DNA of 64,000 nt, taken from Asterochloris sp. CNOR1 (lineage: Eukaryota > Chlorophyta > Trebouxiophyceae > Trebouxiales > Trebouxiaceae). The first letter of the stretch is position 1. Every line of letters starts with the position of its first letter. The position numbers were made by a program, and so were the translations under genes. Positions 1 to 49,600 of this stretch are shown here, piece after piece. Under the pieces are notes generated by a model. The model saw only the letters and a program-made list of their open reading frames with translations, was not told the origin of the DNA and made no database searches. Where the stretch lies: the NCBI GenBank assembly GCA_963969365.1, contig OZ017748.1, positions 558,001 through 622,000 on the forward strand, given 5' to 3'.

Positions 1-157
1 CTGCTGGCTGAAGTGGCACCCAATGCATGCCGGCTGTGCACCATCAGAGCCAACTCAGCTAGCTGGATGGCTCTTAGAGCTTGTGGACCTCCAGCCTTGA
101 GAGCAGCAGCAATGGGGCCTCCGGGCTTTGCATGGGACCTGTCAACCCTACCTGCAG

Positions 158-4823: not shown

Positions 4824-4868
4824 GTTCCAGAGAACACATGAGAGCTCAACGCAGTGACCCCCCTCCTC

Positions 4869-22993: not shown

Positions 22994-23127
22994 CAGAAAT
23001 GCAGCATCATACATGGCAATATTAACTGATCCTCAACTGCTTCAGAGTATACAGCATGTTCAAACAGTCAGCCTGTATTCAAGCCCTCAAAATCTTTTGC
23101 TGTGACCGCTGCTGGATAACACTTTTG

Positions 23128-26656: not shown

Positions 26657-29600
26657 ATGTCGGAGAGACTTGCCAGGCGTGAAGCATCCAGGCCCAATAG
26701 AGCGAGGGCTAACTTGGCAAAGCTTGCTGAGCTGAAGAGGTCCGGGCGCAAGCAGGTTGATGCCTATGAGATCAAGGAGGAGCAGGCGGTCTATGACCTG
26801 CTGGCTGATGATGAGTACGCAGAGCTGGTCCAGGATCGCAGGGAGAAAGGAGGTCAGCAGCTTGCTGTGTGCAGGCTGAGGGATGGCATGCAATGTGCAG
26901 TGTCAAACGAACAGGTGGCGCCTCCTAACCCAACTCTAGGGTCAGAGAGCAGGCCAGCAACTTGTTGGACAGGCTGATTGGTCGTGTCATGCAGGTCGCA
27001 GCATCCCTGCCTGTCGGGCATTGCAGCCTACATGACACACTTGGCATCTAGGCTGCAGTGACGCATGCACGACGGAGGCCAAAGGACTGCTGTGCAATCA
27101 CATGTGTCATGTCGTGCAGACTGCAGCACACTGCAGGCAGGTCAAGCCTTTGTCTTGCCTGGTCTGGGGCTTGCCTGGTCTGGTGCTGTCTCGCACATCA
27201 CTCTGTACTCTTGTGGGCATGTCAAGCTGAGATTGCTGATTGTTTCAGCCTGATGTGCGAACCGGCTCTGCCCGGCTGGTATCCCAGAGATGATTTCAGT
27301 AGCCGGGCTGCTCACGCTGTAGCCCTGTTACAGGGAGATGTAGAGCAGTACAGCCCTCTGTACCTGGTGGCTGCGGCTGTGATGCATTCTCAGCACGCAA
27401 GCAGGCCAGTCAAGGTTGCACCCAATGCAGCGTAGTACTAGTCTCGTGAGCGCCCGGGGGCTTGGGGATGGGCAACTTCATGGGCGCGCCAAGCGTGGCA
27501 GCAGCTGTTTCCAGCAGGAGCCCACTGGTCAAGCCAGCAAGCTGTGGCTCTCTTGTGCAGGCAACTTCATTGAGGACGATGATGGGGCAGGCTATGGTGA
27601 CATAGGGGAGGAGGACGAGTGGGGATCTCGCGAGGAGGAGGCAGAGGCAGCGCCTGCCCTCGGAGACAAGGAGGCTGTCAGCAAGAAGCGTACAGGGGGG
27701 CGCGATGCCGCGGCAGGTGAGGCTGCAGCGGCAGGTTTGGGCTGTCCAAAGGGTGTGCACGGCGGCCCGGCAATGCTGCAGCAGATAAGGGTGCAGCAGT
27801 CAGCCTGTTCATGCCAGCAGGGTGGCGGGCGCTACAGCAGCATTGCAGGCGACCAGCCTGTGGCCGTGGGAGGCTGTCGGCAAGGAACGCAGCAAGTCGC
27901 GGTGATGCTGCAGCGGGCAGGGCTGTGCAGGCACAGGAGGCAGAGCACAGAAGGCACAAAGCTGAGAGCCGCAATGGCAAAGCGGGCCGCTCAGTGCAAC
28001 AGCAATGGAGTGGAGCGTCTGCATGATGCGGTGCCTGCTGGTTGCGCAGTGCAGGTGGCCATTCACTACACTCCCAGCCGGATGGCCACAGACAGCATGC
28101 ACCTGCAGGTGATCCCCCACCCTGCTGGCTGTAGGCATATAGTTGGCAGGGTAGCCATTGCAGCAGATAGGGTCTGCTTGAGGGGACAGAGTGGTGTGCT
28201 CCAGCCCTCGTCAGCCTGAGGCCGCAGCCCACCTGCCCTGAAGCACTGACCACAGGCTGATGCAACGCGGCACCTCCAAGCATGTGCTGCCCCGTGTTCG
28301 AGAAGCTGCTGTTCGGGATGCTGCACAATTTGCGTGCTGCTGCGCTGCAGCCCCAGCCGGTAAGAAAGCCGCAGCTGAGCCAGACCCCCGCCACCGCCAG
28401 CGCCTGCAGAGCATGTTCAAGAAGGCGCCCAAGGCTGTGGCCGGCAGCGCTGCCACTGACAGCTCCTCAGATGACCTGCTGAAGGACATTCTTGGCGGGC
28501 TGGGGGGTGGCGGGGATGCAGGGCCCCGGTGAGAGATATCAGGGCCCACCTGGACTTGCAGCACTACTGGATCTGGGCCGTCAGGTGGCCTTCTACAGGA
28601 TAGGCTGAGGGGCCTTGCAAGAAGACAGAGTGAGACAAGGAGCACTGTGGCATCTGCATGACACCCTGAGCTAGCGCCAGCTGTGCTGCCAAAGACTTGT
28701 ACAGTACTGTGCTGAAGGGTTGTGGGGCGCATGACAGAAGGCGGAGATGCCGGTATGCACTGGCCATCTGCATGAAGCGCAGTGCTGTGCTGTGACGCAC
28801 TCATGCTGGGCTGGTCTGCAGATTGCGCTGGGTTGAGGCCTCCTGGTTTTCAAGGCTGCTGACCTCTTTGAGCACAGCTCTTCACTGCATTATGTTTGCA
28901 GAACCCGTCAGGAGCAGCAGTGCCTACTATTGTCCTGCGAGAGCCCAGGCCACACACCTGGTGCTGCTGCCAATTAGCCAATAAGTTCTGCTCCTGGAAT
29001 CGGGACTGGCACAGTGTCCTGTCTGATGGCCAAACCCTGTGCAGGGTACCTGCACCCTCCCGTACCCAGCCGGCTGCTGCCAGGCGGCGACCGCATGGGC
29101 CTGAGAGGCTCGCCCATGACGCCCCAGTGCCCACAGCCCGCATTGCCAGGTGTGCTGCTCTTGTAAGGACTGCTTTCGTGAGGATGTCCATGTGCCACAG
29201 TTTGTGGGCTTGAGGCACATATATCGGCTCCAGTCACAGTCCCTGTGCATGTACAAGCAGATGTGGTGCTTCGAAACATTGCATTGATGCTCTAGACAGC
29301 TCAAATGGACAGCGCTCTCTCCAATGTCTGGTGTCGGCAGATGCTCACTGCTAGCAAGACCCTGCAGGGGGCATCATGTGCGTAATCTTGTGCAGGCCCA
29401 AGGCAATGTCTGTGGGGCTCAGGCCCACGCCAAGGGCAGTGCAGCCTGAAGTGGGCAGACAATTCAAGAAGGCAGAGCCAGAGGAGCCTCAGCAGATGGA
29501 GGAAGGTGAGCACTCGCACACGTGGGCAGTGTTAGGGTAGTTGCTGAAGCCCTGCTGGCTGCGCGCTCCCATGCGTGCCCTACAAGGATCCTTGCGCAGG

Positions 29601-32600
29601 GCTCAGCAAGCATTGCCCAGTGGGAGGCGCAACAGTCTCAGTTCATGAGGTGGGATCAGCTGCCTGATGCTGGTGTGTGCCCTGTCGCGGAGGAGCCAAA
29701 TGGGTGCTGCAGACAGCTTGGGGGCTGTAGCAGCCTGCTAAAGGGGATACTGCAGCTGCAGGGCATGTCAGGTGCGCTTGGATGCCTGCTGCCAGGTGCT
29801 TGACGTCTGCGGACCCTCGCGTCGCATTGCTGCCCTGTGCAGTGGGCTTGCCTGCAGTAAGCTTGAGCAGGGGCCAGCCAAGCGCTGCACTTGACATCGT
29901 GGTGCAGAGTGACGAGTTCGCTTGCTGGCACACCTCCCTGCAATGGCGTGATGGTGTCTGCTGAACCAGGCTGGCCCTGCGGTCCACAAACAAAGGACAT
30001 GGCAGCTCCAACTTGTTGGGCAGGGCAGCATCATGGTGCCCCTGCAGATGATGACGACCCCGTAGGCCACGACGACTGGGAGCCTCCTGAAGATGACGCA
30101 CAGCCTGGTGCGCCTAAGCCAGAGGGCAGCACAGGGGACCAGCCAGCAGATGGCAGGGGGCAAGCAGAGATGCAGGACCCAGCTGCAGGGGCTGCTGTGG
30201 AGCAGGAGGCAGTGGCAGCAGAGCCCTCGGCAGTGGCCACGCTGAGGCAGGCAGAGGTGAGCTGCAGTGGCGCCTGGCCTGGCCTTTCTGCTGTCGTCTT
30301 GCCTGGTATGCCGAAGTTGTCTTGCCAAATGTGCCTAGGGCTGTGCGCACCATCTGGAAATGCTGCCCAGCACCAGGTCTGTGCATGCAGCACCTGACCC
30401 TTGAGGCATGACCAGGTTCAGCAGACTACTGTGGCCCCACAGTCATGCAGCTGGTGTGGCTCACTTCAAGTTGGGCCAGCCGGCTGCTGCTCTGCAGCGA
30501 CATTCCACCACACCTGTCCTGGTACATGTTTGCATGGCACGCCTGTTGTGTGCACATACTGTCTACAAGGGCTGCTCGTCAAGCAGCACATACTCCCCAT
30601 GCAACTGTGCTGTCCAGCAGGCTGCAGTGGCGGCTTCATGCCGCTGACGCGAATGCAATGCCATTTGGGCCAGAAAGGTGCAGCTCCACAGCAGCCTCAC
30701 CAGTCCACAGCCGGCCCAGGTTCCTCTGCAGTGTGTGGAAGCAGGTTGATGCTCTGCAGGGCCGCCCTGACAGCAGCACGCCCGCCGCTGCCAAGGCCAA
30801 GCCGGAAGGGCTGTCATCCTGGCAGACACCTGCTCCTGTCTTCCCCGATGCGCCCACCCCCGCCACGGCTGCCCCAGCATCAGGGTGGCAGGACATCTAT
30901 GCTGGTGCTGCAGGCAAGTCTGAAGCCCTTATTGCGCCCTGGCCTGGCTGCACACCGTGGTCATGGTGCTGCAGGAAGGCCTGAAGCCCTCGTTGCACCC
31001 TGGCTTGGCAGCACATCAAGACTCCTGCACTCAGATGCTGGGGCCTGCATCATCTGTCTGCATTTTGAAATACGCAAAACATCATGGAGGTGGAGGTGCT
31101 GCATCCCGCAGCTCCTGTCTGCACCTGGACATGCCAGCACACCGTGGGTCATGTGCTTGAGGTGCTGGAGCCTGTCTGCACCTTGACTTAGCAGCACACC
31201 ATAGTTGTGAGTTGCTGTAGCCCAAGAGTTGCCAGCATAGCCCTGATCCTTCTGCACAAAACACTGGTTCCTGGATCTCCTGTCTGTAAGCCTTGACTAG
31301 TTATCACATTGTGCAGCTTTGGCTCAAATCCAAGTGGGCCCACCCGCTTGTCAGGGACCAATCCACGTCATTTGTGCTGTGCCGATCAGCTGCATTTATG
31401 TCCTCTGGATGTTATATGGGCTAAACACACGCTGGCTGCCTGCAGATGAGGACCTAGAGATGCTGGAGAGCCAGCCAGCAAGCCGCACTCTTGCTGACCA
31501 GGCTAAGGCCTCTGTTCTGCTGGCCTGCAGGCAGAAACTCTAGAAAGGGGGCAGGTGACACTCTCGCACGGAGCTTGAACAGCAGTGACTCAGCTTGCTG
31601 TGCTCCAAGTGGCCTGCAGATGAGGATGCAGAGATGGAGGCTGCAGAGGAGCCCGCCAGTGAGTGGAAGGATGATGGCACCCTGCCGCTGGATGGTCAGG
31701 AGCAGCTGCCCTTCTTCTTCATTGATGCACATGAGGAGCATGGCAATCCAGGAGTGGTGTACCTGTTTGGCAAGGTGCAGCTGTGTACTGCATCGGCATG
31801 CGCACATGCTGCTGCGCGGTGATGGTGCAGACCTGCACAGCATTGAAAGCTGCTTCCATATCAGCAGGTGCTTCCACATCAGCCGGCGCTTCCACTGTGG
31901 CCTGAAAGCATGCAACTCTTAAGGAGGTTACACCTATGCACACCATGTCATGTGCACACATTGTGCACAAGAGGGTTTGACGACCTCAGGACTGCTGCTG
32001 AAGAGCCCTGCATGGTGGCCTAGATGCCACAATGCCTGAAAGTTAGCGACTTGCCACAGCACACCTGTGCAGCCCAGGGCCTTGCATGGAGGACGAGATT
32101 CCAGCATGTCTGGAGCTCAACACCTTGCCACAGCATGTCGTGTACAGCAAAGTAAAGCGCAATGCCTTTAGACAAGCACTTGGCAGGACGTAGCACTGCT
32201 GACTTGCAGCACTGCTTTTCCGCACCCAGACCATTGTGTACAGCTGCAGCTGGTGCTCTCAAGCCTTGACAGAATGCCCTTGTGTGAGGCACTTGAACCT
32301 GCACACCTGCCAGCTGCGTTGCATCTGATTCAACCAAAATCGGACAAAAGCAGTAGAGAGGGTTGCACGTCTGCAGGTGCAGCAAGAAGGCAGCCAGCTG
32401 TCATGCTACAGGCTGTGCAATGTCGGTAGTTGTGCTCAGGCCAAGCGCTTTCGAAGCTGTTATGGAAGTGATGCTGCATGCCTGTCATCTGCACCCCGGC
32501 ATGTGCAGCACATGAGCAGCCAGCTGTCAAGTGGCACAACCTGGCAGGGATCTGCAGCACGGCAGGCTTGCTGAGCTGTGGTGCAGGACCGTATGCAGCT

Positions 32601-35600
32601 AGTCCTGCAAGCTTTGCCCATGCAACCCATGACCCACCACACCCCTGCAGGTGCCGCATGAGGGCAGCCCGCTGTCAAGCTACACAATTGTATGGGGGCT
32701 GCGCAGCGTGCTCAATGTGTTGGGGCCCGAGGGGTGTCATACAGCTAGTCCTGCAAGCCCTGCAAGCTTTGCACATGCAGACCTGGAACCCCTCCCACTG
32801 CAGGTGCCGCACGAGGGCAACCAGCTGTCATGCTGCGCCGTCGTGCAGGGGCTGCAGCGCAGCGTCTTTGTGGTGCCCAAGCCAGGCACCTTCGACACTG
32901 ATGCAGAGCTGGAGGAGCTGCAAGCCAGGGCAGAGGGCGATGCCTCGCTCAAGGGGCCGCTCATGAAGCGCCTGCATGTGGGTCGGCTTGAGAGCCCTGC
33001 GTATAACATTGATGTGGATTCGGGGCCTGCCCAATGGCTTGCACGTCTGTCTGCAAGGCAGGCTGTGCTGTGTGGAGCTTGGGGAGCTTGACACTGGATG
33101 CCAACCTACTTCTGCATGCGAGTCCATTTGAGGGGCATGCGCACTGCTTTCTGACCTTGTGTGAGTGCCTTTTTGCACAATGGCCTGCTTGTGTGTGCAG
33201 GACATGTGCTGTTTCGAGACATGTGGGCAGCATCACATTGGGTGGCAGACTCCAGGCCCTGTGCAAGCAATTGCTCTGATGTTGGCGGCAGATGTTGTCC
33301 GTCGCCTTGATCTCTTGGCTTCTGACCGCACGCTCTGACAGAGTCTGGGCACCCCACCTGCAGGAGCTCGCAACTGATGTGAAGGCGGAGGTGAAGCGTC
33401 TGCTGCTGCACCATGGGATCAGCCAGTTCAGGATACGGCCTGTGCGCCGTGACTACGCATTTGAGCAGGCTGGGGTGCCTCATGGGCAGCAGTGGGTCCT
33501 GAAGATCTGCTATGCTGGTACGCTGCCCCAGCTGCCGCTGGGCCTGTCAGGTGGGTGCCAGCTGTAAACTCAACACGTGCATCCTGAGAAGCTGGGTCTT
33601 CAGAAGCACTCATGGTGCATGGCAACCTGCTCCGCAAGTGCCCTTCGACTTCAAAGGGCAGATGCTTGGGTTTACCTCATGCTTCAGCCAATATTCACAG
33701 CAGATTTCGTACGACTTGAATGCCAAACACTGGCCTCATTTTTGGCCTGCCTGCTCATAAGCTACATGACACAGCAAGGGCTGCATTGCAAGAGACCAGG
33801 ACTCCTCAGAAGCAGCAGTCATCCCCAGGTGTCCACACTGCTTGGCACAACTTTCAAAGATTTTATAAGCTGCCTACAGGGGAGCAATTTGTGACGCTGT
33901 TTGGGACCAACCAGAGCATGCTGGAGGCCCTGCTGCTGAAGAGGAAGGTGATGGGCCCCTCCTGGCTGGCGTTGCAGAAGCCAGTAAGGGTTGCAACTCA
34001 GAGCCAGGTACAGCTCTGCACCAAGGCTTTTCATTCCTCATCAAAATGCTCATGGTGGTCTTCTCCTGCTGCGTTGCAAAACATGCGCCAATCTGAATGA
34101 CCTGAGAGATGCGCTTCTCTCGACAATGATTGGCTTTGGGTGGTTCACACGTACAGCACAGCATTGCAGAAGGTTAAAAAAATGCAGTGAGCTGGCTCAC
34201 TAAGCTTTGTCAAAGCTCCATGTAGGAGAGAGCTGCAAAGCTGGTGCAAGCCAGCTTGCATACCGCTTTTTGCCAGAGGCATCTCTGACACAGGGCTGCA
34301 AGTGATCTGGCTGCAGGTCAGCTGGTGCAAGCTGGAGGTGACCATCAGCACTCCCAAGCACATCCAGGCGGAGTGCAGCAGCCTGCAGGGCAGAGTGCCG
34401 CCGCAGCTGGTGGTGGCCGCCATCCATGTGAAAACCAGGCTCACTGCTCAGGTGAGGGCTGCTCTGTGTGGAGCGAGACATCAGGCACCAGGCATCCAGG
34501 GCAGGAAATACCTTCTCCAGGCATGCTTGTCAGCTACCACTGAGTGGGTGCTGCCTGCCCTACTCGTGTCCTGACACTCTGCTTCAGGTCAGAAACATGC
34601 CCAGGATGCCTCATGGCTCTGCAGGCAAACAGCAACGAGATAGTGGCAGCCAGCTTGGTGCATTTGAACCAGGTGCCTGTTGACGGCCCCTGCGCCCACT
34701 GGAACAGTCCACGCCACCTCAGGCACTTCTCGGTGGTCAGGAAGCTGGATGGTCAGCCCTTCCCTGCTGGTGCGTGCTCAACTTGTCCGGCCTGTGTCTG
34801 TGTCCCCACGTCGTATGCGCTGCTCTGGGACAAACTCCCTTGGCAGGGATATGGGCTCTCACACAGCCCTCTGGTGTCTGAGATCCTGCACACTGGAGTG
34901 GCATTCATCCTCTTGAGGCGCCATGTCCTCTGCCTCCGCATCTCCACCTGATGGAGTTCTCTCTTCTTCTTCTTCATCTTCAGTGGATGTTGCCGCCTGG
35001 AGAGAGGCCTCAGCATGCACAGCAGCTTGTCCTGCATCCTGGTCGGCGCAGCAAGAGGCCGCTGCAGGATGGACAGGTGTTTCAGGCACTGTTGAGCACC
35101 GTTGAACTGGCACCTGACCCCTGATGCACAGTTGTGGGGGTTCCATTGCAAAATTTCAGCAGCAAGTTGGGGACAGCACCGCCTGCTGCTGCGGCTGCAG
35201 CCCTTCTGCAGCCCGTCATATTCTCCCTTGGTGCATCTTTACTTAGCAGGTCCATGACATGAACACCTGCTCCCAGGCGTTAAACAGCTGGGGTCGGGAA
35301 GACACTAAAACTTCGGTGCTGGCTCTGGGCAGCAAGTAATGAGCTACTCGACTTGGCCCCCTGGTGCAGGCTTTGAGCAGCAGGTGAGGGACACCAATCA
35401 GTCCGAGGTGGGCAGGCGCAATGGGGGCACCATGCTGAGCCAGCAGGGCAGCGAGCGTGCGCTGCTGTGCTTTTTCATGGAGCGCCTGCATGCGCTAGAT
35501 GTGGACGCCCTGGTGGGGCACAACGTGGCGGCCTTTGACCTGGATGTGCTGCTGCACAGAATGCAGCACCACAAGGTGGGGGCTCCTGTGATGTGCAGTC

Positions 35601-38600
35601 ACTGGTGCGTGGACATAACGTGGGTAGCAAGCAGAGATGCTGCTGTGCTTTCTTATTGAGGGGCTGCGCCTGATACAGCACCACAGGTGGGTGCAGCCGT
35701 CAAGTCATCGGGGTTGCTGCACAGCACACTGCACCACAAGTGGCAGCAGTCTTGCTGACCATGATTCTGCATGGAGTGCCTGCATGGGGTGGATTCTTGT
35801 GTCCTGGTGGGGCATAAGCTGGCGGCCTGTGCCATTGACAAATTGGTGCACCAGAATGCAGCATCGCAAGGTGGGAGCTCCTGTGAAGTGTTACCATGGT
35901 GCGGCACATGCAACAGCCCATTGGGCCTCAAGTCTGCTGCTGTGTTCATGGAGAACTTGCAGGCCCTGACTGGCTGATGGTGGAGTCGTTGTTCTGCTGC
36001 ACAGGATTTGCTTTCACAGGGGCTGGGTCCTGTGTGAGTGCAGCCTTGCGTTTGTACTCACGTTGGTGACAGAAACACACTGCTGGCTGCAGCCAAGGCG
36101 GCAGGCACCTGGAGGGTGCTGCAGTAGCCGGCAATGCAGCAGGCATGTGGAGGATGCCAAGGGCACTCTCCTGTGCATGAAGCGCACTGCCTTCCTGCAG
36201 GTGCCAAATTGGAGCCGTATAGGTCGCTTGAAGCGCTCAAAGTTCCCCAACCTGGGGGGCGGCGGCCACACTTTCGGAGGCGGGGCGGGGGCAGGCATGC
36301 TGGCAGCGCTGTCAGGTCAGCAGCTGCTCGCCTGTGATTCAGGAGGCCGTCACCTGGCTGGTCTAGTCAGCCTCTGATTTGTGGTGGTGCAACAGCAGGC
36401 CGAAATAGCGCATGAAGTCACTTGTGGAAGGTACAAAGGACAGCTGCTGAGCTGAAACCCTGTGTGCATGCATATCCTCTGCCCTTGGAACCAGAACCCT
36501 ATCACGCGCAACTGGCTGGGCTACTTCCACCCTGCAGGGCGGCTGCTGTGTGACACCTACCTGTGCGCCCGGGAGCTGGTGAGGGAGGTGGACTACACAC
36601 TGGGCACGCTCAGCAAGAGCCTGCTCAGGCAGGAGCGCCATGATCTGCCTGCTGCAGACGTGCCAGGTGACTAGTATGGTGTGCTGCAAGGCATGTTTGG
36701 GGAGGCCCTATGGCATGCTCAGCAGGAGCCTGTCTCGATCAGCACACGACCATCTGCCAGCCGCAAACGTGCTGGAAGCACTACAGGATAGCCACTGCAA
36801 GCCTTGGCTCACCAGCTGCAAGCATGAAAGGGGACCATGACAGTTGCAAATGGCATATTTGCAAGCCAGGGCCCGCCAGCCGCAGAGGTGCCAGCGGGGC
36901 CAAGCCGCACTGGGGAACACGCTGCAAGCATGGCCACAACCAGGCGCTGCAGCCTGCAGCTTTCTGGTCCTACTTGTGTTCATTGCTGCCCATGCCGTCC
37001 TGACATGAGACAAGGATCCATCTTTGTGCTTGTGAGCCGCAAAACCTGCACCCAGCAACCTGGTTCTCTCGGTGCCCACACCCTGCTTTCATCTGCTGCA
37101 GCTCGCTACGAGTCTGCGGCCAAGCTGATGAGTCTGGTGAAGCACTCAGAGAGTGATGCATGGCTGTCCCTGGGACTCTGCTTCTACCTCAATGTGCTGC
37201 CCCTGACGCGGCAGTTGACCAACCTGTCAGGCTCGCTGTGGGCCAAGGCACTGCAGGTCAGTGCAATGCCAGAAATGCAGAGTGGCTGATGATGAGACCA
37301 CCAGCACTGTGGATCAGGCCAGCAATCAGGCTTTTGCACAGCCGAGGCTGAGACTTGGGAAGGCTTGGCAGCACCTCCAGCACACCCGGCGGTCTGTGGG
37401 GTGCCTGCACCAGGCTAGCAAGTCTCTGATAGTGCACAGTGGGCACCCTGCAGCTCGCCTCAAGCTGTGTCAGGCACACCCTTGATGTGCCGGCCATGTG
37501 ACATGCAGCGGCATCACCCGCAGCGCATTGAGTTGCTGCTGACCACGTCACTTTGCCTAGGGTGGGCCTCAACGCTTCACTGTGCCTGGGATGTGCCCTG
37601 CAGGGGCATCGGGCGCAGCGCATTGAGATGCTGCTGCTGCATGAGTTCCACGCACGCAAGTTCCTGCTGCCAGACAAGTTGACCGTGAAGGTGCGGCCTG
37701 TACCCGAGGCAGCATTTCCACTGTTTGAGTATTAAAAAGTCTGCAGAGGGCAGTTTTTGCCCTAAATTTACCGTAGCTGCTGTCTGTGGTGGGTGCCTGT
37801 ACATGCATGCAGTACATGCGCCAGGAGCAAACCCACTGATGTGCTGCAACTCAGGCGCCGGCACACAAGCACGCTGAGCGGGATGCGGTGCAGGCCACAA
37901 ATCATGCATAAATGCAAGCCACTCAAGCTGCATGTACTGCTGCTGTCTGATGCAGGCACGTGCACAGGGCACACTTGCGCAATCCGCTTCCTCAGCACAC
38001 CAGCAGTTTTGTGAGGATCAGGAGTGGGCAAGGACCTCAGAGAGAACTTCTTACTCTACTGGCTGACTGTACATTTGGTATGTTGCAGGCAAATGAGAGC
38101 CTGGCTAAGTCGGCCGCAGTGAAGCCTTAATCACTGCAGGGGTCATGAGACAGCAGCCACTGCGCAGCTGTAGATGTAGTAACGTGGCGCTCAGACTGAG
38201 ATTGAGGCTTGTGCAGCAAGGTCAAGGAGCCATAGCTCAACCAGACTATCTGTTTCTCGCCATGGGGCTGTTCAACGTGTCTTGCATGCTGCAGGAGCGG
38301 GACCGCCTGGCTAAGGCAGCCAAGGCAGCTGAGGGCAGCTCTGAGGAGGGCGAGCAAGCTGAGGCCCCTGCAGGTCTGTGCCACAGGCGCCATGGTTCAG
38401 CCTGCTCTGTTTGCTTGCCCCAGAGCACCTGCAGAGTGGCTCTCCACTGTGCATTGGGATCAGGATGCCAGCTGCACTTCGTGCCAGAAGCTTGCAGGCG
38501 TCGTGCAGTGGGGGCAGCTCGGGCACAAATCGCAATCTGCCATGGGCAGAAGTTTGCTGCATCATGGGATCATGGCTGGCCTCTCAGCACAGCACCAGCT

Positions 38601-41600
38601 CAACTTGCCCTGGTCCAATGCAGCGCCTTGTATCCCCCAGCACTCGTGACTTGTCCCGCATAGCTCCCTCATTCACCTCTGCCTGCAGGCGGGAAGAAGC
38701 GTGGGGCGCCTCAGTATGCAGGAGGCCTGGTGCTTGAGCCGAAGAAGGGGCTGTACGACCAGTTTGTGCTGCTGCTGGACTTCAACAGTCTGTACCCATC
38801 CATCATCCAGGTGGGGCCCACAGTTGCACTGCCTGGTGCTGTTCAGCTCTGAGGTGCCTTACATGGAGTCTGCAAGCCTGCAGTGGTCCCAGTGCTACCC
38901 TGCGTCAATGCTATGCTGCAATGCACATGCTGGGTGCATAGCCTGGGGTGTCAATTGCCATGAATGTGAACATCTCAACAGCCTGCACCGTACACCTTGT
39001 GTTATGCTGATGTGACCTAAGCGTGCAGTGCTTGTGACATGGGTCGCGTGTCTGCTGCATTGGTGGTCTCTGTCTTGTGCAGACGCTGCTTCAGCGGATC
39101 AGGCTGGCCTCAACTGCTGTGTGCACAGCGTTCCCTGCCTGGCTTGACTGGCATCCTGTTGCTTCCTTATTGTCAGATGGACTCTGAACACCATCTGTTC
39201 TTGTCAAAAAAACATCACCGAGCGCATGCGTTACCAAGCACATGCTTGTCCATGTAGGAGTACAACATCTGCTTCACCAGTGTGGCGCACCCAGAGCCAG
39301 GAGAGGCGCCCTGCATACCGGAGACAGTGGGCGACATGGCCATTCTGCCCAAGGTGGGCATTTGTGCCTTGCAGTTGAGGCGCTGGCTGTAGCAGGCACA
39401 TCAAGGCTATTCTGCTGGGCAGGCAGGTGTGCAACCCATTGCAACTGACGTGTTGCCTGTGGCAGCCACACCAATGCCACTCTGCCTACCTTGGCATGGG
39501 GCATTGTATTGCAACTGGGATGTCGCTGTAGCAGGCGCACCAAGCCTGATTGGTAGGATTTCCCTGGACTGAGTGCAAGGTGCAGTCGACACTGTTCCTC
39601 AAAGTTTGCCATCAGACTTGGAGGCTTGTGCGCACAGCTGATATGCCCTGCAAGGTAAGCTGTGCATGAGCAAAGCTGACAGCCTGCCTGCTCCAGGGTG
39701 TGTGGACTGTCGGTCCTGCCAGTGATCAGCCTGAGACAGCAGGCGCCTGCGCTGCAGCCCAAGTTGAAAGTTGCACGTCACTCCCCGTGCTGCAGGTCAT
39801 TCGCACCTTGGTGCAGCGACGGCGCCAGGTCAAGGACCTGATCAAGCGGGAGGGTAACGCAGAAAGGAAGCAGCAGCTGGACATCAGGCAGCAGGCCCTC
39901 AAGCTGACCGCCAACTCCATGTATGGCTGCCTTGGATTCAGCAACAGCCGCTTCTATGCCAAGCCGCTGGCAGAACTGATCACAGCGCAGGTGGGCTTCA
40001 GCTGCAAGCACCACCCTGATGGGTGCCTCATTGGCCTGGGAGTATTTCAGATAGGCTTTGATGGATGGAAGCAGCCGCTGGCAGAGCTCATTCCTGCACA
40101 GGTGGGGTTTGAGGTTCCTGAAGACCTGGTATACGTTTGACAAGTCACATTGACATTTGTGGGTGGTAGCAGCCACTGCTTCAATGTTGACGCACTGGGA
40201 GAGCTCAGTGCTGCGCTGCTGCAGTGCTGCAGTGCCACCACTGCAGTATGCAGTAGGTCGAGCCTATCTGTGTGCCTCAATGCCTGCTGCGCCCTTCATC
40301 TTTCACAGCGCATACCCAGGTAATGGATACCCTCTGCAGGAAGCATCGTGAGAATGCTCAAGAGCTTCTGAGCGCTGCTTTGATAGGGGGTGCCTGCTGT
40401 GTATAGGCAGCATTGTCCATGTGCCTTCTCCATTGCGTGCTGCCTTGGCTGCACTCTCATGTAAAGGTGTGTGTACATCACCACAGTTGGTCAGCGCAAA
40501 GCCAAGGCTGCATCACAGGGCCCAGCCCCTGGTGAGACTGGAACCTGTGCAAGTAAACAACAAGTCCAAATGCTACTGCGCGGCCAGTCAGTCGTTACAA
40601 GCACAGTCTTCCTCATGAAGCACAAGGTTTCCTGATCCAGTGGTTGGTTGTCACTACAGGGCCGTGAGATTCTGCAGAACACAGTTGAGCTGGTGGAAGG
40701 GACAGTAGGGCTGGAGGTAAGCCTTGGGCGGTCGCCTTGCCTGACAAGGCAACAGATGTAAACTGCAAGCTTGCTCTGGAAAGCTTGGCCTGATGTGGCA
40801 GCACTGATCACCTTCAAGCTTGCTCTAGGTCTGCTCACTGCGCTGTTTGCAGTTGCACTTGGCCTTCATGCCTTTAAAGCATCAAAGGTCACTATCTGCA
40901 GGCATCGGCAAGTGCAGACTTGCAAGGGTTGTGAGGCAGCTCAAGCAAATTGCTGTGATGCAGGTCATCTATGGTGACACTGACTCTATCATGGTCAACA
41001 CCAAGAGCACTGAGCTGGAGCAGGTGGGTGTGGGGTACTCATGCATCACTTGCAGTGAGGCTTCCTCCCACTTTGCAGTACTTGAAGTCTAGATGTATTG
41101 TTGCAAGGTATCTTGCGCCAATGAGCAGGCTTGCAGCTTCCCCGCAGCACTTGTCCTTGCCAGAGCCAATCTAAGGAGCACCTGCAAGCCCAATTCAGAC
41201 TCTCCAGTGCTGGCCGCAAGTGCTGCAGCTGGGGAGCTATGTGCAGCACGACACAAATAGGCACAACAAAGAGGCTTCTGCCTTTGCTGCCTGTGCTGGA
41301 GCCATAGAACAGTAGCAAGAATAGCCAGAGTCCATAAGGGACTCTCCTTCACAGATGACCAGACGTACTCAGCAGGCCCCCTGCCCAAGTGCAGGTGCTG
41401 CAGCTGGGGGGGCAGGTGAAGCGGGAGGTGAACAAGCGCTACAAGTTGCTGGAGATTGAGATGGACGGCATCTACAAGTGCATGCTGCTGCTGAAGAAGA
41501 AGAAGTATGCGGCCATCAAGCTGGAGCTCGGCAGGGACGGCCAGCCCTTTGAGGTGAGTGCCTCCTACGGTGCTGAATGGAAAGAAGGGTGTGCATCCTC

Positions 41601-44600
41601 TTTCAGTTGGACACATGTTTGCTGCCTAGCAGGTGTCAGTTCATTGTTAGGTGAGCCAGGACCCCTACAGCTGGGCTGCAGGTCCAGAAGCAGAAGAGCC
41701 AGAGGCACCTCCAACGGCGTTCCTGTGGGCGGCTACGATGTGTCCACCAACGTCGCCGCAAGAAGGGCCTGAGCTTGAGCAGCTTGACCGCAACCATCGC
41801 AGGACCAAGCAGACCAGGATCTAAATCTCAGGCTCCAGCCTACTGTGCTGCAGGTTCAGGAGCAGAAGGGGCTGGACATTGTGCGCCGCGACTGGTGCCC
41901 GCTGTCCAAGGACGCCGGCAACTTTGCACTGCGTGAGATCCTGTCAGGCAAGCCGCGCGAGACGGTGGTGGAGGCCATCCACGCCCACCTGGGCGAGGTG
42001 GGTTTGCAGCTTTCTGTGTTGCATTGGGCAATGTATCCTACATGTGGGCTCTGCTGCGGACTTGCCTTTGCTGCGTGCCCACTGCACATGAATCAAGGGC
42101 TCTGGCTATCCCATATCCGGGCAAGGTCAGCTGGATCAGGAACAAGGTGGTGAGCCTGCAGATGCCGTTTCCACAACCTTCATGCATATGTGCAGGCGCA
42201 GGCACTTAGCTGCAGGTGAAGGGAAGGCTGAAGCAGGGTCTCTAAGAGATTTTGCCTGGTATTGCATGCTTTCTGCACGGCTTCAGATCTCTCTGCAGGT
42301 GCAGGAGAGGCTGGAGGAGGCGGCTCTGCGTAGCTCTCCTGCCAACATTTCATTGATTGTTTGTGTAGACTTCTTACGAACTGTTGTCAGAGACAGATTT
42401 TCATGCAGGTGCGAGAGAGACTGGAGCAGGGGCAGGTGCCCAAGAACAAGTACATCATTACCAAGCAGTTGACCAAGAACCCTAAGGACTACCCTGACGC
42501 TCGCAACCAGCCTCACGTTCAGGTTGCGCTGCGTAGGCAGGCTGCGGGGAAGCGTGATGGAGTCATGCAGGTGTGTGACGGGGCCTCTGTGCTTCATTTG
42601 GGCGCACGAAGGGAGCCACCATCTCACGCTAGGGCAGTGGGCGTGCTGCTGCTGCATGAGCAGGCCTGGGCATCTGGCAGCAGCAGGCGCTGCGCCAGAT
42701 CCACAGGCGCGTTGCGCCCCAGCATTGCATACATGTTGGACAGGAGCTGGAGCTGTGGCAGCAGGCGGCGGGGAAGCGGGATAGCGTGTTGCAGGTGTGG
42801 TGCTCCGCATTGCTTGACGCAGTGACCCATTGAGTAACCTGCCCAGATGCCACCCTCTTCCTGCAGGCAGTCACACATCAGGCAGGGCCATGTGCCATGT
42901 TGTACACTTGATAAAAGCGCACGGCGCTTCACACTCCTGCAAGAAGCTGCAGACAGTGTCGCCGGCAAGATTGCATGCCACACAGACACCGTCTGAGCCA
43001 GCCCTGGCCCCGCAGGGTGAGACGGTGCCCTACATCATCTGTGTGGAGCGTGACGGGGAGGGGAATGTGCTGCCCGAGCAGAAGAGCGTGGCGGAGCGCG
43101 CTCACCATCCAGACGAGCTGACTGCCGACGCTGGGCTGGCTGTGGATGTGGACTATTATCTGGCCCAGCAGGTGAACGCACCATCACTGTGCAGGCGCTC
43201 AGGGTGTCAGGTAGTACCACTTTATATGATGGGGGGCTTCACGAGGGAGATCAAGGGCCATCAGGGAATGCATGGCAGCCATCTCAGGGCTGGCTGCAGA
43301 CACGGACCATTACCTGGTGCAGCAGATGTTTGTCTTGTGTTGGCTCTTTGGTATGAGTTGGTGAAAATGCAGCAGTATTGAGCCATGGCCCTACACACCC
43401 AAGGGACTGCAAGACAGCTGAGGCAAAGCTGACCAGGGACATGGACAACTACCTGTCTCAGGATGTGGGTGAGTCAATTTTCATGGTGACTGGGCAAGTC
43501 TGCCACAGATGTATATAGTAAGCTGCAGCAGCACTTGGGGGCAACCTGTCTGCGCAGAAAGGGCCCATGGCTCAGCCTCGAATGTGCAGGCGTTTCAAGC
43601 TCTGGCAAGGTAATTGCCAGGCCAACCTGGAGGTGCACCTGGTTGTGTTGTTCCGGTGCTCCCCCTCAGTCTGTGGGTGCCGTCAAGCGCTGAGCATTGT
43701 CTGCGGCGTCTGCCAGCATCCCTAGTCCTCAGCTCTGCTCACCTCACTCAGCCCTACAGGTGCTCCCAGTGGCGTCCCATCATTGCACCGCCCACTCTCA
43801 GCTCCACCAGACGCATGCAAAGCTTTCAGTCAGTCCTCAGCACATGCGCCATCCCTGCCTGCGGCTGCACCCTCTATCAGCCCTGCTCCAGTCACCTCAA
43901 GCCTGCAGGTGCATCCAGTGGTGTCCCGTCTTTGCGCCCCGATCGACGGCACCGACCCTGCCCGCCTGGCGCACTGCCTGGGCCTGGACGATAGCCGCTT
44001 CCACAAGCAGGTGCAGAGCTCGGCGGCGCAGGCACGGGAGGAGATCCAGCTGACCGGGACGGCCTGCTGCGACGACGAGGACCGCTACAGGGTCAGCTGG
44101 CTGCAGCAGTTCCTGCATCACGAGCCCCCGTGCTGCCTGCAGAACGGCAGGTTTCTGTGGCTGGACGCAGCAGATGACTTGCGCTTAACCATTGCTGGTG
44201 TTCTGTGTTATCTTGGTGGTGCTGGAACACCACTATTGGTCCCAAGTCGGCCGTCTTGACTGAGTGCTCATGATGCCTGCAGGATTGTGATCCTCTCTGT
44301 CTCACGACGGCAGACGGCTCGCAATTTAACTTCGTCGGCACGGCGGCTGTGGCCTCAGGCAGGGTGTCGGCAGACACAGCACTGGTGCCGCCAGACGCTG
44401 TGGGGGATGCCGCCGCTGTCCCGCTGAGCGGGGCCCAGGTCGCTAACCAGGTGTTGCTTCAGGTGAAATTGGTACCTGCCTGCAGCTGTGACAGTGTGAC
44501 AATGGGGACGACTCACAAGCACAGCCCTGTGCTCAGACCTGAGCTTGCAGCTCCCTGGAAAGGGCCTGCCCATGCCAGATGCAGTGGGTTGACGCTGGTC

Positions 44601-46386
44601 AGCCAGGTGGCGCTGCATGTGAGGACACGGCTGGCACGCAGATCAGGAAAGGGGTGCGGGGTTGAGGCAGTGCCCTGTGTGGCATAGGATCTTCATTGGC
44701 ATCATTCAAAGCTGTCATCGCAACCCCATGGGACCAGCTCGCATGCTGGCATGCATATATAGTTGCTGTGACAGCTGCATGCTGGCCTTGCAGAGCGTTC
44801 TGGGCCTCAGGTGGCCATTCCGGTGGGTTCCACTCAACAAGGGCCTGCTTGCAAATCTGACAAGCTGACACAGGGCGTTCGCCGTGTGACGCAGCCCTAT
44901 CAGGCTTGAAGCTGCTCAAGGGCCAGCGCTTGCGCCAGCTGGAATGCTGTGAGGGACGCTGCTGCAGTCACGCTGGGTGGGGCTCAGGATGCCAGCTAGA
45001 TACTGCCTGCGGTGAGACCAAGGATCCCCTCTTGTGTTTGCATAAGAATGGCGGAAGTGAGCCAGGGACCTGCTGGTCTGGCATGGCCTGTGCTCATAAA
45101 CGAGCATGACATTCCTGGGCAGGGCTTGAAAGTAGGCGAGGTGTGGCCCCAGAAGGAACCTGCTGACCTGCGAGAGCTGTCTGGGCCATAAGGTGACGCC
45201 TCAGGTCAGGCGAAAGCTTGCGCACAAAGAAGAATCAAGAGTGTAGGCGCTTCTCAATTGCCACACCCTGCCTGTGCAGGCCAGTGCCTTGAGGCAGCTG
45301 GAATGGTGCTGGGTGCTGCTCCCAGGCAGAACCTTTGTCCACATGAACGTCGTACACATCATTGATGTGCAGGCGCGCCAGGCCATATCCCGCTACTACG
45401 ACGGCGCCCTGAAGTCGGACGACAGCCTGTTGCCCTGCGAGACACGCAATGTGTGCCTGCGCTCTCTGGACGATGGGTCTGCGCCCGGAACCGCACCCCC
45501 CAACACAGCCTCAGCAGGTGCGCTGTGTGAAATTCCAGAACGGGCTACTCAAGCATTACTTAGACGCAGGGCAAGGGCTTGGCGCCTGGGACTGTGGCCC
45601 TTAAAGTACTTCAGCAGGTGCATTGCTTCCCAATGCGCATCTTCATGAGTGAGGGGTGCCTGAGGGTGGTGTGCCTGCGCAGATGCTTATTTGTGCCACG
45701 ACCTTGTTTGGGGTATCTATAATTGATTGTGCTTGGACAAGGGCTGCCTAAGTAGAGTGTGCCTCATCCACCGTTACTGCGCCTCCTACGATGGCCCCCA
45801 TAGGTGCAGATCACACCCTTTGGTGCGGACTAAAAATGCCGTTGCAGTACAGTGCTGTCAGCATGACTCTTAGCCCAGCAGGTACAGATTCGGTGGCCAT
45901 GCTGGTGCTAGCAGGAGTGCTTGCTGTGTGATAGGAGATTTGTGAGGTCTGTAACCTGCCCTGGCGGCTGCGGACTCTGCAGGTAACAAGGCGGGCAGAA
46001 CACGACTAAACTGGCATTGCAGCCAGGGTGGGGATGGAGGCAACCCTTGTACTGTGGTCCCAAGCTTGAAGACTGGACACAGAATGCTGCCCTTTATCAT
46101 CCACACCTGCTGACAGCTTGCCTCATGTCTTGCAGGCCACATGGCCCAGGTGTACACCGAGCGAGCTCTGTATACCCAGCTGGCCCATTACAGCCGCCTG
46201 CTGAGCCCAGAGGTCGCTGTTAGAGCCTCTGGGCAGGAAGTGGATGCCAGGCAGGCTGCAGAGGACAGGCTGCAGCCTATCGCTGCCTGTCTGGAGCTGG
46301 GCTGGCAGCAGGCCGAGGCCTTGCAGAGCAGCAGCGCTCACAGATGGACCAACCTGGCCAACATGCTGGCTCCACCAGTTGGGTGA
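26657..46386 (+). CDS. POLA1: DNA polymerase alpha catalytic subunit, 1532 aa, 31 exons
   Basis: This family-B polymerase partners primase and extends RNA primers in the nucleus. Exons: 26657-26852, 27561-27716, 28351-28528, 29396-29505, 30048-30256, 30745-30913, 31620-31774, 32804-32977, 33364-33550, 33880-33983, 34317-34451, 34625-34769, 35370-35575, 36201-36315, 36538-36666, 37102-37256, 37604-37690, 38295-38373, 38689-38810, 39258-39353, 39796-39990, 40660-40716, 40964-41023, 41395-41553, 41854-41997, 42409-42570, 43016-43171, 43909-44091, 44283-44462, 45373-45517, 46136-46386. All phases close. The N-terminal [21 protein letters not shown] region is typical of the family. Motif A is [10 protein letters not shown] (about 927-936), motif B is [11 protein letters not shown], and motif C is YGDTDS (1056-1061). 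The exonuclease-like domain lacks proofreading residues, as is normal for alpha. Of the C-terminal zinc sites, only LPCETRNVC remains in the spliced model; other Cys pairs are missing. Exons 3-6 are the least certain. Confidence 0.93.
30904..31210 (+). repeat. About 60-bp degenerate tandem array starting at POLA1 exon 6 donor
   Basis: The exon 6 end and its GC donor (GGTGCTGCAGGCAAGTCTGA, 30904 onward) are copied 61 bp downstream (GGTGCTGCAGGAAGGCCTGA, 30965 onward), both followed by AAGCCC..TTG/TTGC-CCCTGGC. Weaker copies (CTGCACCTTGACTTAGCAGC type) continue to about 31210. Confidence 0.65.
31441..31490 (+). repeat. Exon echo of POLA1 exon 7 start
   Basis: TGCAGATGAGGACCTAGAGA at 31441 mirrors the true acceptor and exon start TGCAGATGAGGATGCAGAGA at 31616. 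It would translate DEDLEMLE against the real DEDAEMEA. Confidence 0.65.
32371..32803 (+). repeat. Three exon echoes of POLA1 exon 8 start, one part of a ~153-bp tandem duplication
   Basis: Copies begin near 32371, 32496 and 32645; the functional acceptor is at 32803. The first copy matches about 34 of the first 40 positions. The third copy includes the upstream intron phrase CAGCTAGTCCTGCAAGC, so intron end and exon head were duplicated together. It stays open in frame: [20 protein letters not shown] against [20 protein letters not shown] in the real exon. Confidence 0.75.
35636..36010 (+). repeat. Three exon echoes of POLA1 exon 13 in intron 13
   Basis: Near 35638 the phrase CTGCTGTGCTTTCTTATTGA echoes the exon's CTGCTGTGCTTTTTCATGGA, and the copy ends with the exon's last codons and donor. 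Near 35765-35890 a longer copy translates [20 protein letters not shown] against [20 protein letters not shown] and again includes the donor. A third partial copy starts near 35938. Confidence 0.75.
36713..36900 (+). repeat. Exon echoes of POLA1 exon 15 end
   Basis: GCATGCTCAGCAGGAGCCTG at 36713 matches the exon's GCACGCTCAGCAAGAGCCTG at 36603, and the likeness runs on for some 60 bp (..CACGACCATCTGCCAGCCGC). A shorter copy occurs near 36873 (GCCCGCCAGCCGCAGAGGTG). Confidence 0.65.
37502..37555 (+). repeat. Exon echo of POLA1 exon 17 start
   Basis: CGCAGCGCATTGAGTTGCTG (from 37519) and its flanks lie about 100 bp before the real exon's CGCAGCGCATTGAGATGCTG; the leading CATGCAG..GGCATC is also shared. 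Confidence 0.7.
39371..39552 (+). repeat. About 70-bp tandem repeat in POLA1 intron 20
   Basis: Three copies of the form GTAGCAGGC-CA-CAAG-CT-ATT or GCAGCCACACCAATGCCACT start near 39388, 39460 and 39528. They loosely resemble the end of exon 20 (ATGGCCATTCTGCCCAAGG). Confidence 0.5.
40055..40113 (+). repeat. Exon echo of POLA1 exon 21 end with donor
   Basis: AGCCGCTGGCAGAGCTCATT at 40073 copies AGCCGCTGGCAGAACTGATC of the exon's end (motif B region), followed in both by CAGGTGGG, the donor. Confidence 0.7.
41679..41760 (+). repeat. Exon echo of POLA1 exon 25 start
   Basis: GCTGCAGGTCCAGAAGCAGA at 41679 resembles GCTGCAGGTTCAGGAGCAGA at the functional acceptor (41848). Weaker likeness continues for about 60 bp. 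Confidence 0.6.
42293..42803 (+). repeat. Exon echoes on both sides of POLA1 exon 26
   Basis: Before the exon, GCAGGTGCAGGAGAGGCTGG (about 42297) echoes its start GCAGGTGCGAGAGAGACTGG. After it, GCGGCGGGGAAGCGGGATAG (about 42770) echoes its end GGCTGCGGGGAAGCGTGATG, again leading into CAGGTGTG, the donor. Confidence 0.65.
43290..43480 (+). repeat. Two exon echoes of POLA1 exon 27 end
   Basis: The exon's end (..GACTATTATCTGGCCCAGCAG) is echoed near 43290-43330 (GACCATTACCTGGTGCAGCA) and near 43428-43475 (GACAACTACCTGTCTCAGGA, followed by a GTGGGTGAG donor-like phrase). Confidence 0.6.
43755..43795 (+). repeat. Exon echo of POLA1 exon 28 start
   Basis: ACAGGTGCTCCCAGTGGCGT near 43756 echoes GCAGGTGCATCCAGTGGTGT at the functional acceptor (43906), followed in both by CCC and a TTGC phrase. 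Confidence 0.65.
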
Positions 46387-46666: not shown

Positions 46667-49600
46667 CTACTTCTTGCCAGCTGCAAGAGCAGCCTTCCTG
46701 CCCTGCAGTTTCTCGACACGTTGCCTCTTGGCTTTCTTGCCACGCTGCATGGCATTGTACAGTCCACGGGTCTTGCTGGTCATCATTACAGTTGCATCTG
46801 GCTCCAGCAGCTCATCAGAAACAGCAGGAGCCTTGGCTGGAGCCTCGGCTGCTGCCTTTTCTTCTACCTGCACAACCGCAGGCAAGATCATGCTGAGCTA
46901 TGTCTTGTGTGACACAAAGCCGCAAGCGAGCGGTCAGCAGACATTGAACACTTCACTTTCAGCTGCAGGTGCGGGTTGAGCAATGCAGCTCCCACGCGCA
47001 GCAGCGACTTGCCTGCAGATCTGCCTGTAGCTCCCTCTGCAGCTCAGCCTGGTACAGCTGCTCAGCATCCCTCTCAGCCCTGGTGGCTGGGGCAATCTCC
47101 TCAGGCTGCTCCTGAGAGGCCAGGAAGGCAGCTGCCTCCATGTCACCAGCCGAGCGCTTCCTTACAGCAGTGGCAGCATCCTGCAGGAAGTAGGACATGG
47201 CTGTCGGCAGCCTGTTGCCAGCATATGAGACCTGGTAATCAGCCTTATGGAGCCTCTCAGGCCAGGTCCTGACAAGGCCCAACAGCAACAACTTTAACAA
47301 AATAGCTCCCTATGCATGCTCTGCCCCAAGGGGCCTGTGCCAACAAGACAGCCCCTATGTGCAGCTCACAATTGCTATTGACATGATTGGTCCAAGTTGC
47401 AGCTTTTTCAAGGTGTCAAGCCAGAGCATGTAATGTCAAGGCAGCCTATGATGTCAGGGCAGCCTGCAGTGGCAAGACTGCCTGAAGTATCAGGGCAGAG
47501 TCGAGGTGGCCTGACAGTGCAGCCAGCACCATGTGTTTCATGGTGCCTCAGCCGCCTGCCACTTGCCATATGCACCTTCAGCTTGCGTCTGCAAGTCGGC
47601 TTCCTGGACGTCTGCAAGTCGGCCACCTGGGCCACACCTTCACCACCTGTCACCACTGCTTGCCACACAGCACTCGCGTGCAGCCAAACCCCCACCCCCA
47701 CATGCAGCTCACCTGCAGCTTGCGCATCGTCTGCAGGTAGTCGGGCACATACTCGTCCTCTCCAGTGGCAGCGAAGGGCGACAAGTGGGGCGGGGGCGCA
47801 ATGCCTGGGACATAGAGCTCTGTCCGCGCCAGCACCCTGAAGTTGGCGCTGTCCATCACCCACTGGGGCTGCACATACTCCCTCGACATGAAACGATGGC
47901 CCTGGGTGGGGCGGTCCACCACCTGCAGGCGGTGAGATGGTGCCTTTCAAGAAGTCATTCTCTTGTCGACAAGCGGCGCAGCGTGCTGCGGTGGCCCTGG
48001 GTGGAGCGGTCCACCACTTGCAGGCAGTGAGATGCTGCCTTTCAGGTGTCATTCTTCGATCAACAGACAGCATGATGTGCTCTGTTGGGCGTGTGTGGGC
48101 TGTCCACCAGCTGCAGGCGCAGGCGAGCACAACACGGCTGGACAAGCAGGAGACCACTGCCTGCACAGACACAGACCCCGCTTCTGCTTATCTGACAGGC
48201 TCAGGCTGGGCCCCGCCTGGCGCGTGATGGACCCCTCAGCCTTCTTCAGCAGTGGACACTCTCTGTTTACCCCCTTAATCATCCCCGCAGCGCAGTCTTT
48301 CCCCGCACCTGGTGCGTGATGGACTCGTCCGCCTCCCTCAGGGGGCTGCCCTCCCCGTCCCAGGCCACCGTGCCCCCAAAGGCGCGGATGACGAAAAGGA
48401 GGGGCTCCTGGGGCACCTCCCGCCCGAGAAAGAAGACGAGGCCCCTGAACAAGCATTCACAGAGGAGGGCATCGTCGTCTGAGTCCACCCCCAAAGCTCC
48501 CCCTGCCAAGCTGTCCAAGGCCGGCTGCTGGGGCTCGGGGTGCTGCTGCAGTGAGGGGGGCGCTGCGTCTGCAACAAAGGTCAGCGGTCCTGCAGAACAG
48601 CAGCAAGCAGGTCAAAGGGAAGGGCGCAGAGGCGTGGGCGGACTGGCTGAGTGTCATTGAGTGTCCAGTGTGCACAGGCCCCTGCTGCTCGCCATATTCA
48701 GCCTTTGAGCAAGACATCCAGCGCCCCCACTGTTTCTGCAGCATCCAACACGGACGCACAGCTTCTGAGAGGCCCTCCTGAATCACCAGCAGTCCCTGCT
48801 GCTAGACACACTCAGCCAAAGTGAGACACCCCCGCTTGCACTCGGTCTGCAACAACAGTCTCAGCCGCACAGCTGCCAAGACCGCCACCTGGCTTACCAT
48901 CAGTGTCCATGGCCGCCTGCACAGCTCCCTCATCTCCATGCAGACCGTCTGGATCCGCGGCCGGCGGCTGTTCTGCCGAGGGCAGAGCGGGAGCTTCTGG
49001 CTGAGACTTCTGGGCAGCCAGGTCCTGCATGATGGCTTGCAGAGCCTCTGCGGCCTCTTCCATCTTAGGGTCAATGACAGGGGGGTACCTGCAGATGTCA
49101 GCAGCGTGCTGGGTTGACCTCAACAGGCGTCATGGCAGGGCCACTGTGCAACAAGCCAGGCACATGCATCCTGGGACGCAGCGCCTGCATGCCTCAGGGT
49201 TCTTGCCTCTGCCCAGCCCCAAGGCATATCATGACGCTGGAGTTCTGCAGGCGGTGCAGGCCATGTGAGGGGTGGCCTCACACCACCTTGCCTTACATTT
49301 GTGCTCATGCAACCCCTTGGCAGCCTTGGCGACAATGGCACATACAATTTGCTTATGAAACTTGCATTTGTGCAAAACCCAGACAGCCCCCTGACTGCCC
49401 TTGTGGAGGCATAGCAGCACTGATGCAACCGTGATGTGCACACAGCGCCACGCGATTGGCTGGTCACCTGACACCCAGGCCATGGTACAGTCGGAAGTTG
49501 ACAAACTGCAGCAGCGTAGAGTAGAACTCCAGGAAGGTCAACATGACCTTGTAGTCAACATCCACGGGCAGCACCTACAGCAGCAGGAGAGGAGTGCGCA

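Follow-up and report, generated by a model that had tools for sequence, protein, structure and literature searches.

The window analysed here is a stretch of 64,000 nucleotides, positions 558001-622000 of contig OZ017748.1, in the genome of the green alga Asterochloris sp. CNOR1, which comprises 56.4 Mb in 21 contigs with about 57% GC. For Asterochloris glomerata, the accessible part of the genome report gives 56 Mb, 56-62% GC and 9 introns per gene (PMC6652019). The window was analysed together with two 100-kb samples and five 10-kb samples, 314 kb in all, and gene models were obtained, with no prior annotation at hand, from a gene finder self-trained on the same 314 kb. Among three settings, the one used gave 69 genes in the 314 kb and placed POLA1, encoding the DNA polymerase alpha catalytic subunit, exactly at 26657-46386; these ends were recovered by two of the three settings, while the third fused POLA1 with the next gene. 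The POLA1 model was then refined by spliced alignment to the Myrmecia bisecta orthologue (52% identical), with zero-length and doubtful small exons removed by hand. The best relatives of the encoded protein were found in Myrmecia bisecta (52% identity, 99% query coverage) and in a Trebouxia species (60% identity, 26% coverage).

Pfam families supported the window models for pescadillo (Pescadillo_N), an Mpv17-like protein (Mpv17_PMP22), uL22 (Ribosomal_L22) and a reverse transcriptase (PF00078), the last in a retroelement-like model at 74-6287 on the minus strand. The same search returned no family for the models at 18195-23235 and 59047-60529. Two neighbouring paralogous genes are located at 9992-11338 and 13101-16271; in the latter, two-exon units of about 530 bp are repeated several times and the encoded protein repeats too.

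The introns of POLA1 contain copies of the edges of the adjacent exons, listed here with the gene itself.

26657-46386, plus strand: POLA1, 32 exons and 31 introns by gene model and orthologue alignment, median intron 445 bp
27740-27803 and 27869-27937, plus strand: two copies of the 3' edge of exon 2 (27561-27716), with 46/60 and 47/66 identities and p_emp 0.0025 for both
31438-31482, plus strand: upstream-intron copy of the 5' edge of exon 8 (31620-31774), 37/44, p_emp 0.0025
32371-32429, 32494-32573 and 32636-32709, plus strand: three copies of the acceptor and 5' edge of exon 9 (32804-32977), nearest copy 60/74, p_evd 2e-8
35801-35890, plus strand: downstream-intron copy of the 3' edge and donor region of exon 14 (35370-35575), 71/89, p_evd 2e-9
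36712-36783, plus strand: copy of the 3' edge of exon 16 (36538-36666), 53/70, p_emp 0.0025
37489-37541, plus strand: copy of the acceptor and 5' edge of exon 18 (37604-37690), 43/53, p_evd 1e-5
40034-40109, plus strand: copy of the 3' edge of exon 22 (39796-39990), 52/68, p_emp 0.0025
41216-41269, plus strand: copy of the 5' edge of exon 25 (41395-41553), 38/54, p_emp 0.0025
41664-41761, plus strand: copy of the 5' edge of exon 26 (41854-41997), 59/83, p_emp 0.0025
42284-42324, plus strand: copy of the 5' edge of exon 27 (42409-42570), 32/40, p_emp 0.0025
42745-42799, plus strand: copy of the 3' edge and donor of exon 27 (42409-42570), 42/55, p_evd 4e-5
43258-43328, plus strand: copy of the 3' edge of exon 28 (43016-43171), 48/70, p_emp 0.0025
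43739-43818, plus strand: copy of the acceptor and 5' edge of exon 29 (43909-44091), 57/70, p_evd 6e-5
44761-44851 and 44944-45017, plus strand: two copies of the 3' edge of exon 30 (44283-44462), 59/85 and 52/74, p_emp 0.0025 each

The first-pass annotation of this DNA, made from the letters alone, had reported such copies in at least ten POLA1 introns, with one to three copies apiece, and both counts held. Copies were detected in 10 of the 31 introns by a strict test and in 16 by a looser one, which used a border query of 70+20 bp at p<=0.02, searched only the expected sides and would return about one to two introns by chance; with the same border query, some introns hold two or three copies. 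Together, 21 POLA1 copies account for 1460 of 15026 intron bases. The expectation that an intron resembles its own exon more than the other exons was borne out by self-alignment of POLA1, in which the own exon ranked top in 5/31 cases for the 5' edge and the upstream intron and in 7/31 for the 3' edge and the downstream intron, against 1/31 on each of the wrong sides.

Copies had also been reported from other genes of the window, and the 70+20 bp border query recovered them in 4 of 13 introns of pescadillo, 2 of 8 of the Mpv17-like gene, 2 of 4 of the uL22-containing model and 3 of 9 of the gene at 18195-23235; the presence of copies in this last gene was thus borne out, while its proposed name, At5g03900-like, found no confirmation. 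Neither the model at 59047-60529 (0/3 introns by the same query) nor the retroelement-like model (0/7 model introns) showed exon-edge copies. Representative copies are as follows, the pescadillo one being the best preserved in the window.

19653-19724, plus strand: copy of the 3' edge of exon 4 of the gene 18195-23235, 51/71, p_emp 0.0025
47989-48037, minus strand: copy of the acceptor and 5' edge of a pescadillo exon (border copy 47894-47942), 44/49, p_evd 2e-7
56906-56979, minus strand: copy of an exon's 5' edge from the Mpv17-like gene 54129-58731, 56/70, p_evd 1e-6
63305-63361, plus strand: copy of the 5' edge of exon 5 of the uL22-containing model 60731-63652, 43/57, p_emp 0.0025

Were the exon-edge copies minisatellite arrays, they should register with a tandem-repeat finder, which reported 12 arrays in the window. 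Two of them are in POLA1 (27154-27187, and an 18-bp tandem array at 31851-31895 in an intron), neither on a listed copy, and one array (47586-47630) overlaps a weaker pescadillo copy at 47559-47635.

Across the 314 kb, a match was assigned to the expected side when a 5' exon edge recurred in the upstream intron or a 3' edge in the downstream intron, and to the wrong side in the opposite case. At p<=0.01, the expected side gave 60/898 and the wrong side 17/898 (Fisher 5e-7). Copies therefore lie both before and after the functional exon, as previously noted, but in an ordered manner, with 5' edges before and 3' edges after, rather than mixed. Inverted matches on the expected side amounted to 13/898 compared with the 60/898 direct ones. 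On the wrong side they reached 25/898, above the nominal 9, which places the true background nearer 2% than 1%; the direct expected-side count still differs from this higher figure (p 1e-4).

Tandem duplication across a splice site necessarily produces such one-sidedness, which dispersed copying would not give. An insertion of exon-edge fragments into nearby introns, dispersed or templated as in repair patches, would fit the facts that adjacency is not demonstrated for most copies and that 3' copies often stop near the border. It predicts, however, copies in both neighbouring introns and in both orientations, and both of these were near background, which makes insertion unlikely. Chance similarity or an assembly artefact is extremely improbable. 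The sequence is indeed GC-rich with frequent TGCAG words, permissive gapped alignment yields long spurious spans, and own-gene inverted matches are somewhat above nominal, but length-matched, rank, inverted, far-distance and wrong-side controls all fell below the signal, and assembly error would not produce copies whose identity ranges from 66 to 93% with a median of 75%.

Exon-edge copies in introns are real and above chance, and they are strong in the window, where 10/89 (5' edge, upstream) and 13/85 (3' edge, downstream) compare with 4/85 and 1/89 on the wrong sides. Outside the window, the corresponding figures were 19/404 and 23/399 (4 expected each) against 10/399 and 8/404, or 42/803 against 18/803 when pooled (Fisher 0.002), and inverted matches numbered 4 and 5 on the expected sides and 11 and 11 on the wrong sides. 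The five 10-kb samples contributed 12/100 expected-side versus 2/100 wrong-side matches (p 0.01), whereas the two 100-kb samples were weak, with 30/703 versus 16/703 (p 0.05). The proposal of a genome-wide phenomenon is accordingly favoured by the pooled excess outside the window and tempered by the large samples.

At p<=0.01 and a score of at least 85, 54 of 482 introns and 25 of 64 genes carried a copy, POLA1 being richer than most; given the 2% background, perhaps a quarter to a third of these introns are chance hits. The rate climbs with intron length, from 8/226 edges in introns of 50-150 bp to 12/58 in those above 600 bp, and copy-bearing introns are longer (median 415.5 versus 220.5 bp). 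Among introns of at least 380 bp, 39/178 borders exceeded the 1% level, as did 19/109 outside the window. At p<=0.01, no copy was found at 51 predicted CDS starts or at 58 predicted CDS ends (at p<=0.05, 3 and 4, respectively, which is near chance). Duplication over a start would create an extra upstream start codon and would be selected against; a copy across a stop should be tolerated, so that the absence at CDS ends sits uneasily with the proposed mechanism, and the null at CDS ends is to be read with predicted gene ends being the least accurate part of the gene models. One C7 gene model, with an in-frame minisatellite inside a predicted exon at C7 56-57 kb, was dropped from most edge tests and from the decay figures, and the repeat genes of the window (8-16.5 kb) were left out of the border/interior, 70+20 bp and gene-end tests.

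Local repetition was also apparent independently of gene models. Of 2430 tiles of 100 bp, 3.9% matched the following 500 bp in direct orientation and 0.3% in inverted orientation, and direct matches beyond 500 bp occurred at 0.3-1.2%, the threshold being the level reached by 0.1% of far pairs. The tile rate of the window is inflated by the repeat genes at 8-16 kb (22/40 tiles at 12-16 kb), and in 28-48 kb, which is mostly POLA1, 15/200 tiles matched. The spacing, frame and young-copy scans left out 7.5-16.8 kb of the window as well as C7 55-58.5 kb and 75.5-80.5 kb. Outside these repeat-rich stretches, a strict scan (at least 75% ungapped identity over 40 bp) gave 79 clusters at spacings of 20-1000 bp, with about 0.002 expected per spacing; 62/79 had spacings below 200 bp and none fell at 700-1000 bp. 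A modal unit of 90-160 bp was rejected, as the spacing spectrum is roughly flat from 20 to 170 bp and then drops.

Spacings divisible by 3 made up 8/30 of border-intron pairs, as expected for non-coding growth, 9/19 of intron-intron pairs and 6/7 of exon-internal pairs, the last being a weak control because a single coding stretch at 5.6-6.0 kb supplies 4 of the 7. Introner-type mobile introns would occur as near-identical copies dispersed over the genome; in the one search made, a stretch of 1 kb containing intron sequence matched only itself in the genome.

Intron interiors take part as well, since 13/124 interior tiles matched nearby sequence of the same intron (inverted, 2/124). Exon-only border hits were about 1.6 times as frequent (29/178, Fisher 0.18), and at a cut-off of 100 the difference was 22/178 versus 4/124 (p 0.006), consistent with a possible modest border bias at the high cut-off. 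In simulations, a copy decaying on one side only was detectable for about twice as long as one decaying on both. The interior repeat level is thereby explicable by two-sided decay, so that a border-specific mechanism was discarded as unnecessary and a splice-linked one is not needed either. The earlier proposal, in which borders between exon and intron are repeatedly duplicated and the copy not in use stays behind as intron, is partly supported: side, orientation, spacing and decay fit it, and the repeats are not specific to borders.

The anatomy of the copies provides further constraints. Exon-only alignments end at the exon edge, which is also the query end, exactly in 25/58 cases and within 3 bp in 45/58. 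In 5' copies, similarity to the intron flank extends to about 20 bp (0.45 versus 0.27 at offsets 11-15); in 3' copies, flank is barely common beyond about 10 bp. Significant extension past the exon core was found in 15/55 copies, where about 3 would be expected, and the other 40 had no demonstrable extension; exact head-to-tail units are therefore shown for a minority. In the best alignments, border, acceptor and intron tail were copied together, as at POLA1 exon 9, with ungapped register hits at 153 and 427 bp, and exon 18, where 37451-37541 aligns with 37549-37636. The head-to-tail fit gave near-complete units in 3 of 4 usable alignments, with gaps between copies of 5, 7 and -5 bp. Equality of span and spacing was dropped as proof of tandem units, because a control in which the flanks were replaced filled 0.91 of the spacing as well.

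These features bear on the AGGT model, a known mechanism in which exonic tandem duplication creates new introns and the intron itself is the copy. In its favour, 120 of 530 predicted internal exons start with GT. None of the 21 POLA1 copies, however, touches the intron end required by the model, the one opposite to its own exon, the nearest being 31 bp off, and several copies contain intron flank plus the old splice site, so that this origin is very unlikely.

The splice site had been said to be usually copied along, but its dinucleotide is retained in only part of the copies: AG was kept in 9/20 of the 5' copies, near expectation, and GT in 4/22 of the 3' copies, against about 12 expected at 75% identity (P 3e-4). 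The donor deficit may reflect units that often end at the border or donor, or a faster than neutral loss of competing donors through selection. Splice-site retention as a function of the copies was rejected, there being no excess (29/50 in a permissive set, 0.525 for any dinucleotide); the swapped-pair control is uninformative at the splice dinucleotide because the real site never varies.

Nor did the in-frame residues that had been regarded as conserved indicate coding constraint. Over 36 pairs, identity at the three codon positions was 0.764/0.780/0.707 and 46 of 57 indels were frame-breaking; these figures supersede those from permissive alignments (0.742/0.733/0.729). A copy under coding constraint would differ mainly at third positions; the decay looks neutral. 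It is thus highly improbable that the copies are alternative, mutually exclusive exons or recent exon duplicates still in use. The gene finder did call some of them coding (within 39796-40101, 41682-41739 and 42687-42794), but they are mostly partial exons, their codon-position, indel and splice-dinucleotide figures speak against use, and the orthologue-guided model employs none of the listed POLA1 copies as an exon.

The observations are probably best explained by short tandem duplications at the DNA level that cross exon-intron borders, with the outer copy absorbed into the intron. Short stretches, mostly below 200 bp, would be duplicated side by side. Within exons, a duplication would survive mainly if the frame is kept, whereas within introns it would be neutral. 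Across a border it would be neutral too, as the copy contiguous with the exon would still be spliced and the outer copy would turn intronic; the intron would gain one unit, the protein would stay unchanged and the outer copy would decay as non-coding DNA. For a unit spanning the acceptor, only the downstream copy would be contiguous with the exon, leaving the outer copy upstream, and for the donor the outer copy would lie downstream. The conserved exon copy would keep border duplications recognisable for longer than intron-intron ones, giving an apparent specificity for exon edges. Each event would then be an exact head-to-tail duplication, and the outer copy is presumably not spliced in.

In respect of timing, the copies look old. 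Under a constant birth rate, simulation places 37-38% of detected copies at identities of at least 85%, compared with 3/36 observed. In the scan without gene models, none of 65 non-exonic repeats reached 95% identity (32-37% expected) and 4/65 reached 90% (48-54% expected), with the simulations assuming equal rates across sites and chosen indel rates, and the scan having a 50-bp limit that excluded a 45-bp intergenic pair at 97.5%. Loss by deletion would enlarge the young fraction and so cannot explain the shortage. Repeat-induced mutation was rejected as its cause: no signature was seen, with 252 transitions versus 244 transversions and substitutions per base of 0.128 (C>T), 0.118 (G>A), 0.129 (T>C) and 0.140 (A>G). 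The plain reading of the near-absence of young copies is an old wave or a strong slow-down, which suggests that the process is not active now and that most events would belong to an old wave, a reading to be taken with the caveats that young copies might have collapsed in assembly and that the youngest repeats seen lie in the C7 stretches that the scan omitted. A segmental duplication at C7 77-79 kb, in which 246 bp at 100% and 537 bp at 87% lie about 1.9 kb apart, was nevertheless retained by the assembly.

The mutational process itself is known and is here encountered at high density and with unusual legibility. In the AGGT duplication model, as far as its accessible descriptions go, a tandem duplication in a coding gene likewise leaves the protein unchanged and turns one copy into intron; there, purely exonic AGGT sequence is duplicated and an intron is created, while here introns lengthen. 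Tandem duplication as a source of new introns includes one border-crossing case, the potato RdRp gene, in which, according to the portion of the paper available, a tandem duplication took in an intron's 3' end together with the 5' part of the exon that follows, and splice signals were inherited from the parent (Ma, Lan and Niu 2016, PMC4974935). That single case produced a new intron, in contrast to the many events here, in which the outer copy was apparently absorbed into an existing intron. Near intron pairs in Drosophila share duplication followed by intronisation of one copy, and differ, in the accessible text, in that tandem duplication and intron sliding gave new intron positions, with 5/31 cases probably by duplication (Lehmann et al. 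2010, PMC2891723). In the open-licence literature, at the level of titles and abstract starts and with most subscription papers outside the search, no description of pervasive exon-edge copies within existing introns was found. Gao and Lynch, in work dated 2009, reportedly described frequent internal duplications in eukaryotic genes. These may overlap with partial exon-edge copies in introns and constitute the main threat to novelty.

To our knowledge, there is little documentation of intron length gain in compact genomes, because copies within introns decay on either side and are lost from view. An exon-edge copy decays mostly on one side, so that the event is preserved, and with such copies intron growth can be counted and dated directly, and its course examined as steady or proceeding in waves. 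A tentative extension, which we would put at somewhat less than even, is that much intron length in this lineage was built by an old, largely ended wave of short local tandem duplications, for which exon edges serve as a ruler that makes growth countable and datable per intron.

As a minor observation, CAG/GT sites, acceptor and donor in one, are found within POLA1 copies at 32377, 32651, 41682, 42299 and 43760. All five belong to the ten positions at which the spliced aligner had placed zero-length exons and, judged from these motifs, may be recursive splice points.
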